Origin: a virus
Reading direction: 5' to 3' (one strand)
Virus record (IMG/VR): IMGVR_UViG_3300025769_001036
Span: 1-20,992 of that record
DNA length: 20,992 bases
Below are positions 1,525 to 3,267 of this stretch, in pieces (positions within the stretch are counted from its first letter, which is position 1; each line of letters begins with the position of its first letter). The position numbers and the translations under genes are program-made. A model generated the notes under the pieces. The model saw nothing but the letters and a program-made list of their open reading frames with translations, had not been told where the DNA came from and did no database searches.

Positions 1525-1548
1525 TATTTATATGTATTAGTATTTATT
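1525..1548 (-). promoter_or_regulatory. Two tandem NATAAATA boxes
   Basis: On the minus strand AATAAATA (1541-1548) is followed by TATAAATA (1525-1532), then AAGGAG and the ATG at 1509. Both match the T4-type late promoter core. They sit directly downstream of the terminator at 1585-1624, where a new promoter would be needed for the three-gene cassette. Confidence 0.45.
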
Positions 1549-1584: not shown

Positions 1585-1624
1585 AAAAAAAAGTGCTACA
1601 AAACTCGGGGTAATGTAGCACTTT
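1585..1624 (-). terminator. Rho-independent terminator
   Basis: On the minus strand a perfect 11-bp stem (AAAGTGCTACA with TGTAGCACTTT, 13-base loop) runs straight into a run of eight T (1592 down to 1585; the first three also pair in the stem). It would end transcription coming from the structural and HNH genes, or from the box at 1900-1907. It lies about 290 bases beyond the HNH stop codon and 75 bases before the next gene. Confidence 0.85.
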
Positions 1625-1873
1625 ACATATACTATTATTAGGAAAATTCTATTTTGGCACATATCTAAGAATGCTTTAAACGTATTATAGGCAACATTTA
1701 AAGTTTCGGTGTTATGCGATAACTAACCGAAAAGTTAGTTAAGAATTTTAATTTTTTTAAGTGAATCACCACCACACTTAATTGGAGTTAAAGTGATTTT
1801 TTGTAGTCAGGGTGCTCTGTTATTATGAATTACAATTTTGAATCCCACCGGAGAGGCTAGATTTTTGTTGAAA

Positions 1874-1886
1874 TGTAACAGTTACA
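1874..1886. promoter_or_regulatory. Operator-like palindrome
   Basis: TGTAAC and GTTACA flank a single central base, giving a 13-base inverted repeat. It begins 13 bases downstream of the GATAAATA box at 1900-1907, near the expected transcript start, where a repressor or other dimeric protein could bind. In RNA it would form only a 5-bp hairpin. Confidence 0.3.
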
Positions 1887-1899
1887 ATAACTACACTTT

Positions 1900-1907
1900 T
1901 ATTTATC
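1900..1907 (-). promoter_or_regulatory. GATAAATA box upstream of candidate RNA
   Basis: The minus strand reads GATAAATA six bases beyond the HNH stop codon (1913-1915). It fits the NATAAATA pattern shared by five gap motifs. No -35 hexamer is seen. A transcript starting near 1893 would run into the terminator at 1585-1624. Confidence 0.4.
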
Positions 1908-1912
1908 TATTT

Positions 1913-2257
1913 TTACGATTTCTTAGAACGTTTTCTAGTTGATCTGTTGTTTTGTTTGTGAGTGCCCTTTTTTAGATGTAAAGGATGAAAACAACGCCTA
2001 TTGTGACACATATGCATAATAACATCTGTCTTTTCTAATGGTTTATCATAGTATACTGCATACATCAGTCTGTGCAATAGTGTTACATTTGATTTAAAAT
2101 ATTGTGGATATGTTTTGCAATCTACTTGTTTGTAAGTATCTTTGTTGTGTTCCCAACAGGGTGAGTTTTTTAGGTGATTTGTGGTGCTTGTTTGCCCGTG
2201 TGTTGCAAGTTGATAGAACAGACTATATAGTGCCTGTTGTCTTTTATTTTTTTGCAT
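1913..2257 (-). CDS. Small HNH endonuclease
   Basis: This 114-residue protein has the layout of zinc-binding HNH nucleases: H62-R63 (LLHRLMY), then VIMHMCHNRRC with H82, C84 and C89, then HPLHLKKGT with H94 and G98-T99, and an N pair at 103-104. The usual Asn of the C-x-N-P motif is His here (CFHP, H91). HNH proteins of this type cut or nick DNA using a beta-beta-alpha metal fold. The tail is very basic (RSTRKRSKKS), which suits DNA contact. No SD is seen before ATG 2255-2257, and a 7-bp hairpin lies just upstream at 2265-2283. The gene stands alone at the end of the late cluster. It could be a free-standing homing nuclease or a phage-function nuclease. It has no RuvC domain, so it is not an IscB-type protein. 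Confidence 0.85.
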   Translation of the reverse strand: MQKNKRQQALYSLFYQLATHGQTSTTNHLKNSPCWEHNKDTYKQVDCKTYPQYFKSNVTLLHRLMYAVYYDKPLEKTDVIMHMCHNRRCFHPLHLKKGTHKQNNRSTRKRSKKS

Positions 2258-2952: not shown

Positions 2953-3267
2953 CTACGTCTCCTTTTTAATTTGTTTATTGACCCATCCTAATGCTCTAGG
3001 ACCACCCCATAAAAGGTAGGCCCCTATTGCTTTGCTGTTTTTGGCAGTGAGTCCTCTGCCTTTAGCACTATCATAATTGCTTCTTGCTCTAATCAAATAA
3101 CTACGCATTCTGATAAGTGTCTCTAAACTTAAATTGTCTCCATTTACCAACTGATTTGCTCTGGCTAGTCCTACTGCTGTGCCATAACGTCTACTTGGTG
3201 GTAAATCTTTTCTTATTTCTAGTGCCTTACGTGCGGCATTCTTCATATAATCTGGTGCTACTGGCAT
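2953..3267 (-). CDS. WGG-motif phage protein of unknown function
   Basis: This 104-residue protein shows the pattern of a small domain common in phages: an N-terminal helix (MKNAARKALEIRKDLP), then GTAVGLARANQLVNGDNLS, then a core with RMRSYLIRARSN, and finally SKAIGAYLLWGGPRALGWV. The combination of arginine-rich helices with a closing LWGG and a W is characteristic. The domain is found alone or fused to head or other phage proteins and its role is not established. AGGAC precedes the ATG at 3265-3267 and the gene follows the propeller gene by one base, so it is part of the same operon. Confidence 0.75.
   Translation of the reverse strand: MPVAPDYMKNAARKALEIRKDLPPSRRYGTAVGLARANQLVNGDNLSLETLIRMRSYLIRARSNYDSAKGRGLTAKNSKAIGAYLLWGGPRALGWVNKQIKKET

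Follow-up and report, generated by a model that had tools for sequence, protein, structure and literature searches.

A candidate stand-alone structured RNA, anchored to a late-type box, in marine tailed phages

The gene-free gap and its surroundings

The window, meaning the whole stretch of DNA analysed here, spans the 20,992 bases of a virus record. Its main genes, for a portal protein, a major head protein, a tape measure protein and a J-like tail fibre, together with small genes, lie on the minus strand, and the finding is therefore read on that strand. In the stretch that links the last structural genes to the operon that leads to terminase, we found a gap (1510-1912) that holds no plausible gene (Table 1). 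The preliminary description of this DNA had reported a GATAAATA box, an absence of genes and a perfect 11-bp terminator stem with eight T at this place, and all three were confirmed on the minus strand from 1907 to 1585.

Table 1. Coordinates of the features at the locus (window numbering)
Feature	Position	Strand	Basis or remark
Small HNH endonuclease gene	1913..2257	(-)	Upstream; outside the RNA unit
Box GATAAATA	1900..1907	(-)	Presumed late-type promoter -10 element, from its location, strand bias and spacing
Whole structured RNA	1585..1895	(-)	About 311 nt; fold z and homologues L041, L043/L044, L045
Domain A	1802..1895	(-)	Four-lineage fold, pair table, counts, leave-one-out model
P1 of domain A	1895-1888/1809-1802	(-)	Closing helix
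Domain A core UGU/GCA	1886-1884/1815-1813	(-)	CCC bulge 1812-1810
P3, inner helix of domain A	1881-1876/1822-1817	(-)	
Hairpin P4	1765..1798	(-)	Directly 3' of domain A; predicted folds
3' domain	1643..1749	(-)	Closed by P5 (1749-1742/1650-1643); holds P6 (1740-1721)
AUGUUGCC motif	1697-1690	(-)	Inside the 3' domain; common to L041, L044 and type B RNAs
Intrinsic terminator	1585..1624	(-)	Perfect 11-bp stem 1624-1614/1600-1590, 13-nt loop, eight T 1592-1585
Two extra ATAAATA boxes	1525..1547	(-)	Between the terminator and the next gene
Next gene, 109 aa	1180..1509	(-)	Distant homologue of the RNA-adjacent gene in L041, L044 and L116

Apart from the terminator, the window has no stem that reaches 9 bp and carries a T-run, and 30 shuffles produced none of 10 bp or longer with a T-run. 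The fold of the 313-nt RNA is better than those of dinucleotide shuffles (z = -3.9, terminator included). When the terminator was removed, the window RNA still beat the shuffles (z = -2.3), and its relatives gave z values of -2.0 to -4.0. Together with the homologues, this suggests that the gap almost certainly encodes a real structured RNA that belongs to a family of such RNAs.

The closing helix P1 starts 4 nt downstream of the GATAAATA box, and a similar spacing of 4-5 nt is seen in L041, in L044 and in the type B RNAs presented later. The count of GATAAATA itself is unremarkable (2 found, 1.36 expected). However, all five ATAAATA sequences of the window are on the transcribed strand, and 11 related loci have 46 of them on that strand and 3 on the opposite one. 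T4-type late transcription units associate a TATAAATA-like box at -10 with a dedicated sigma factor, gp55. No gp55 homologue was present among the proteins scanned, a subset of the genes; the strand bias of the box stands at 46:3. Since a late-type box precedes the window RNA, we infer that it is a late-infection transcript. L045 has a perfect TTGACA-16-TATAAT promoter in place of the ATAAATA box, just before P1 (1118-1145 of that locus, 12/12 positions of the sigma-70 consensus).

The RNA had previously been described as lying beside an HNH gene, whose product has 114 aa and matches Pfam HNH_3 only. This neighbour changes among the relatives: L045, L106 and L116 carry an RNA in this place with a head gene upstream and no directly adjoining HNH gene, whereas in L041/L044 the HNH gene is placed after a second RNA. 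Judged from these neighbourhoods, the link of the HNH gene to the RNA is incidental. At 2309-2368, on the upstream border of the HNH gene region, identity to the closely related locus L002 drops sharply, which is what a recombination joint would give. On the other side, homologues of the next gene were located in L041 (2697-3185, minus strand), L044 (6156-6572, minus strand) and L116 (1613-1957); they are distantly related, and flank the RNA in four lineages in opposite orientations. A pairing of this gene with the RNA was considered and rejected, the gene being also found without the RNA.

Domain A and its four lineages

L002, a 99.6% copy of the locus, is uninformative on structure. Distant phages were found by a search with a nearby gene (2953-3267), and among them L041 and L043/L044 carry homologues in the same place. 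A fourth domain A lineage, L045, was found via the core motif. Each homologue consists of a promoter, about 4-6 nt, a closing helix, an RNA of 230-330 nt and a terminator hairpin, the T-run of which is short in L045. The gene upstream is divergent in L041 and L044, where it lies on the opposite strand, and the RNA is therefore not a 3' UTR in these phages. The recurrence of this anatomy in diverged phages, the divergent upstream gene in L041/L044 and the promoter that L045 has of its own lend support to the earlier reading of a stand-alone unit. The order of box, RNA, terminator, new boxes and next gene suggests that the window RNA very probably forms its own transcription unit.

The four RNAs were folded singly, and the same 5' domain, domain A, was predicted in each: going inward from a P1 of 8-13 bp, an N/CCC internal loop is followed by UGU/GCA, by an AA/R loop and finally by an inner helix of 3-7 bp. 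Its internal loops are asymmetric and invariant (GUUAnUGUAA / AGCACCCUGA). Moreover, compensatory changes are seen in the homologous gaps, where the outer pairs of P1 and the pairs of the inner helix change on both sides in L045 and L044. For the pairs of these two helices, 95.3% of the cells are paired, against at most 48% when slid. A leave-one-out covariance model, trained on the window, L041 and L044, finds L045 with 45.8 bits (E = 9e-7 over 583 kb), whereas the next best match has 17 bits. The window, which carries the features of domain A membership (P1, the GUUAnUGUAA / AGCACCCUGA core and the inner helix), scores 93 bits against the domain A covariance model, being itself in the training set. 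Domain A is known from four lineages only, three of which share P1 almost letter for letter.

In searches for further members, the four-lineage covariance model gave no additional convincing copy in 128 loci or 36 whole viral records. Exact-motif scans of IMG/VR recovered the known lineages only, the remaining matches being due to chance and mostly in coding DNA, and a pattern scan of 84,980 genomes yielded ten chance-like matches. L186 and L188 were rejected as members, since their ∼29-30 bits stem solely from the core imposed by the pattern, and the weak model matches in L193 and L194 were discarded because they lie inside coding sequence. A blastn search of INPHARED phages with the window, L041 and L044 RNAs matched only an AT-rich chance stretch of the leader. 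We also noted that the ends of the L044 record (31,198 bases) share 965 bases with 99.9% identity, so that it probably represents a complete genome of ∼30.2 kb.

The 3' domain aligns poorly among the homologues. It contains a pair of mutually exclusive helices that had been taken as the sign of a switch. Both hairpins are indeed possible in the window, at 1740-1721 (-5.7 kcal/mol) and 1732-1704 (-8.0 kcal/mol), but the relatives lack the alternative one. The switch reading itself was not borne out: the exclusive pair is not conserved in L041 or L044, the P1 strands find no alternative partner in the 3' part that outdoes those in shuffles (p 0.05-0.82), and a conserved switch between P1 and the terminator is not significant. 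A short peptide starting ML(L)P at the motif was also rejected; it has 10-11 codons and lacks a ribosome site, and it occurs only in the window, L041 and L043/L044.

A wider class of box-anchored RNAs

In the same genomic place, relatives without domain A have gaps that open with a box and contain a long closing helix, in many cases together with a terminator. These type B RNAs are different closed RNAs, which start 4-5 nt after the box and hold a GUUGCC hairpin. A scan of all [GT]ATAAATA boxes revealed that perfect helices of at least 9 bp begin 4-5 nt past the box and hardly ever at another position within 30 nt. At offsets 3-6, closing helices of this length follow 8 of 163 boxes, compared with 3 of 1304 control windows (Fisher p 2e-6), and the 8 boxes correspond to six distinct P1 sequences. 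Beyond these, there are helices with G-U pairs (the window, L041, L044, L122 and one in L126) or with a mismatch (L108); the window P1, 8 bp with a G-U pair, falls below the 9-bp threshold of the scan. The box-anchored P1 sequences diverge widely while their complementarity is kept. The helices in the count of 14 P1 sequences had been selected for their pairing, which leaves the offset test as the appropriate evidence.

A GUU(n)UGCC sequence is found within 240 nt of the box in 10/10 de-duplicated members versus 7/129 other boxes and a background of 238/4169 windows, with a pattern that was partly defined on the same RNAs in which it was counted. The GUUGCC motif usually stands in a small hairpin flanked by two larger ones. 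In the window, L041 and L044 it is placed in the 3' domain, and CAUAAUAAAUGUUAUUGCCUAACAG of L041 resembles CAUAAUAAAUGUUGCCAAACAG of L127. The MAFFT alignment of the domain B RNAs is too poor for a covariance model, and their relation rests on anatomy and motif. We infer from these comparisons a modular organization, with domains A and B together in the window, A alone in L045 and B alone elsewhere.

Two arrangements of the class deserve description. L123 (5461-5833) and L126 (6077-6450) have two different closed RNAs in tandem with no gene between, each 5 nt after its own box. In L109 (1149-1265) and L114 (3593-3709), a box-anchored closed RNA with the GUUGCC motif runs directly into AAGGAG and a start codon, at which a 160-aa gene begins. 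Read from their layout, the RNAs of L109 and L114 are mRNA leaders, and the window form is a terminated RNA.

Comparison with known RNAs and possible function

At the gathering score, Rfam 15 gave no match in the window, L002, L041, L044, L045 or nine further loci, and at loose thresholds only chance-level matches. This negative result covers GOLLD, ROOL, HEARO, the group I intron and IMES as far as the library lists them. The earlier failure to match the RNA to any known one held in this covariance search, with no HEARO or GOLLD match. By sequence comparison, the window RNA has no counterpart in Rfam, nor in INPHARED by blastn, and its family was previously uncatalogued.

In style, the closest RNAs are GOLLD, ROOL, HEARO, put and lambda 6S, although, among their defining features that can be tested, only a putL-like position at the 5' end was found here. 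HEARO / OMEGA RNA neighbours an IscB/IsrB-type HNH nuclease of several hundred residues. As in that system, the window RNA adjoins an HNH gene, but its neighbour is a 114-aa HNH_3 protein that varies among relatives, and no Rfam match was obtained. Lambda 6S RNA is a late-promoter leader ended by tR', in which a promoter, an RNA of ∼200-300 nt, a terminator and genes succeed each other. The window shows the same order; however, its RNA domain is conserved as structure and further boxes come after the terminator. Like GOLLD and ROOL, the window RNA is a structured stand-alone phage RNA, but it is far from the size of GOLLD (often >800 nt), and whereas GOLLD and ROOL lie near tRNA islands, no tRNA gene was found in the window or the related loci scanned. 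GOLLD expression rises at phage lysis (PMC12286853). Other structured RNAs of marine phages include the manA and wcaG motifs, with manA in possible 5' UTRs (PMC2864571); these cyanophage motifs correspond to Rfam RF01745 and RF01761, neither of which matches the window.

We consider it probable, at about 0.68, that the window RNA is a stand-alone noncoding RNA of a new modular family of marine tailed phages, which may act in trans. With a late-type box, it would be made late in infection. It may be long-lived, because its 5' end is closed (UGUA... in P1 around domain A) and it ends in a terminator hairpin. Domain A could be a protein-binding site, since its invariant loops are held in a helix whose own sequence drifts, and the RNA would then act in trans on a host or phage protein, either by binding it as a partner or by serving as its decoy. 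This particular function, protein binding in trans, is put forward tentatively, at somewhat less than even odds.

A cis-acting role, as for HK022 put, is a strong rival, because the RNAs of L109 and L114 run straight into a ribosome site and start codon. The RNA could be the 5' leader of a longer transcript and influence the very polymerase that produced it, by antitermination in the manner of put or by attenuation, with a terminator that is overridden in certain conditions, the situation at lambda's late promoter. We regard this as rather unlikely for the window. The position between structural genes and the terminase operon would suit it, but in the window, L041 and L044 the terminator is separated from the next gene by new boxes, and no conserved antiterminator pairing was found. 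In HK022 putL, pairing begins at A3 of the transcript (PMC9378689), and the window RNA likewise starts pairing at its very 5' end, just past the promoter. In contrast to put, which has two stem-loops in ∼70 nt on early transcripts whose polymerase ignores terminators, the class has a closed domain of 80-200 nt and a late-type box, with a terminator at the end in the window RNA; domain A forms a single long, irregular helix of 80-106 nt.

Also unlikely, though conceivable, is that a whole phage lineage opens a part of its late transcripts with a closed modular domain, set exactly where transcription starts, which engages RNA polymerase or another host machine. Per this reading, domains A and B would be a general RNA part, which might serve as an mRNA leader, or as a free RNA once a terminator is added.

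We judge it improbable that the RNA is a base-pairing (antisense) small RNA, in which an exposed GUUGCC loop targets phage or host messages. The loop motif is kept in 10/10 box-anchored RNAs, an eight-T terminator is of the kind found on small RNAs, and a 9-nt match to the next leader exists in L108. However, neither the RNA nor its GUUGCC loop has a consistent phage target across lineages, and the best conserved nucleotides of domain A are in helices and internal loops rather than in an open seed.

An ordinary 3' UTR, i.e. tail-operon read-through that ends at the terminator without function, is very improbable. The window by itself would allow it, with the HNH gene upstream on the same strand and no terminator between this gene and the RNA, but the opposite-strand upstream gene in L041 and L044, the perfect promoter before the L045 RNA and a structure homologous enough for L045 to be found by the leave-one-out model all argue against it. 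Finally, a MITE-like insertion with the closing helix as terminal inverted repeats (TGTA...TACA) is scarcely credible: the TGT...ACA ends and 8-12 bp inverted repeats recall one, but the repeats differ between phages yet stay complementary, include G-U pairs and always begin 4-5 nt after a box, the flanking letters of the box-anchored RNAs are without duplications, and no close relative was seen that lacks exactly this segment and has a restored target site.

To the several unexplained structured RNAs of marine phages, the present RNA adds a concise set of diagnostic features (box, 4-5 nt, UGU-closed helix and GUUGCC hairpin) with which large metagenomes can be searched. The modular comparison of domain A alone, box-anchored domain B and both makes its function testable. 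If placement at the 5' end matters, it might represent a new means by which phages mark or protect late transcripts.

We also observed a second, larger noncoding element of ∼350-500 nt, which starts AACAAACAGAACAUAAGG and lies at 244-709 on the minus strand of the window. It gave no match in Rfam or, by blastn, in INPHARED. It is present in a dozen related phages, with copies in L041 (3713-4220), L044 (7153-7683), L039, L107, L109, L110, L112, L114, L123, L126 and L128, and is better sampled than the RNA at 1585-1895. In the window and L041 it directly follows a small protein gene, and its helices covary (AACAG/CUGUU and GCAGGU/ACCUGC).
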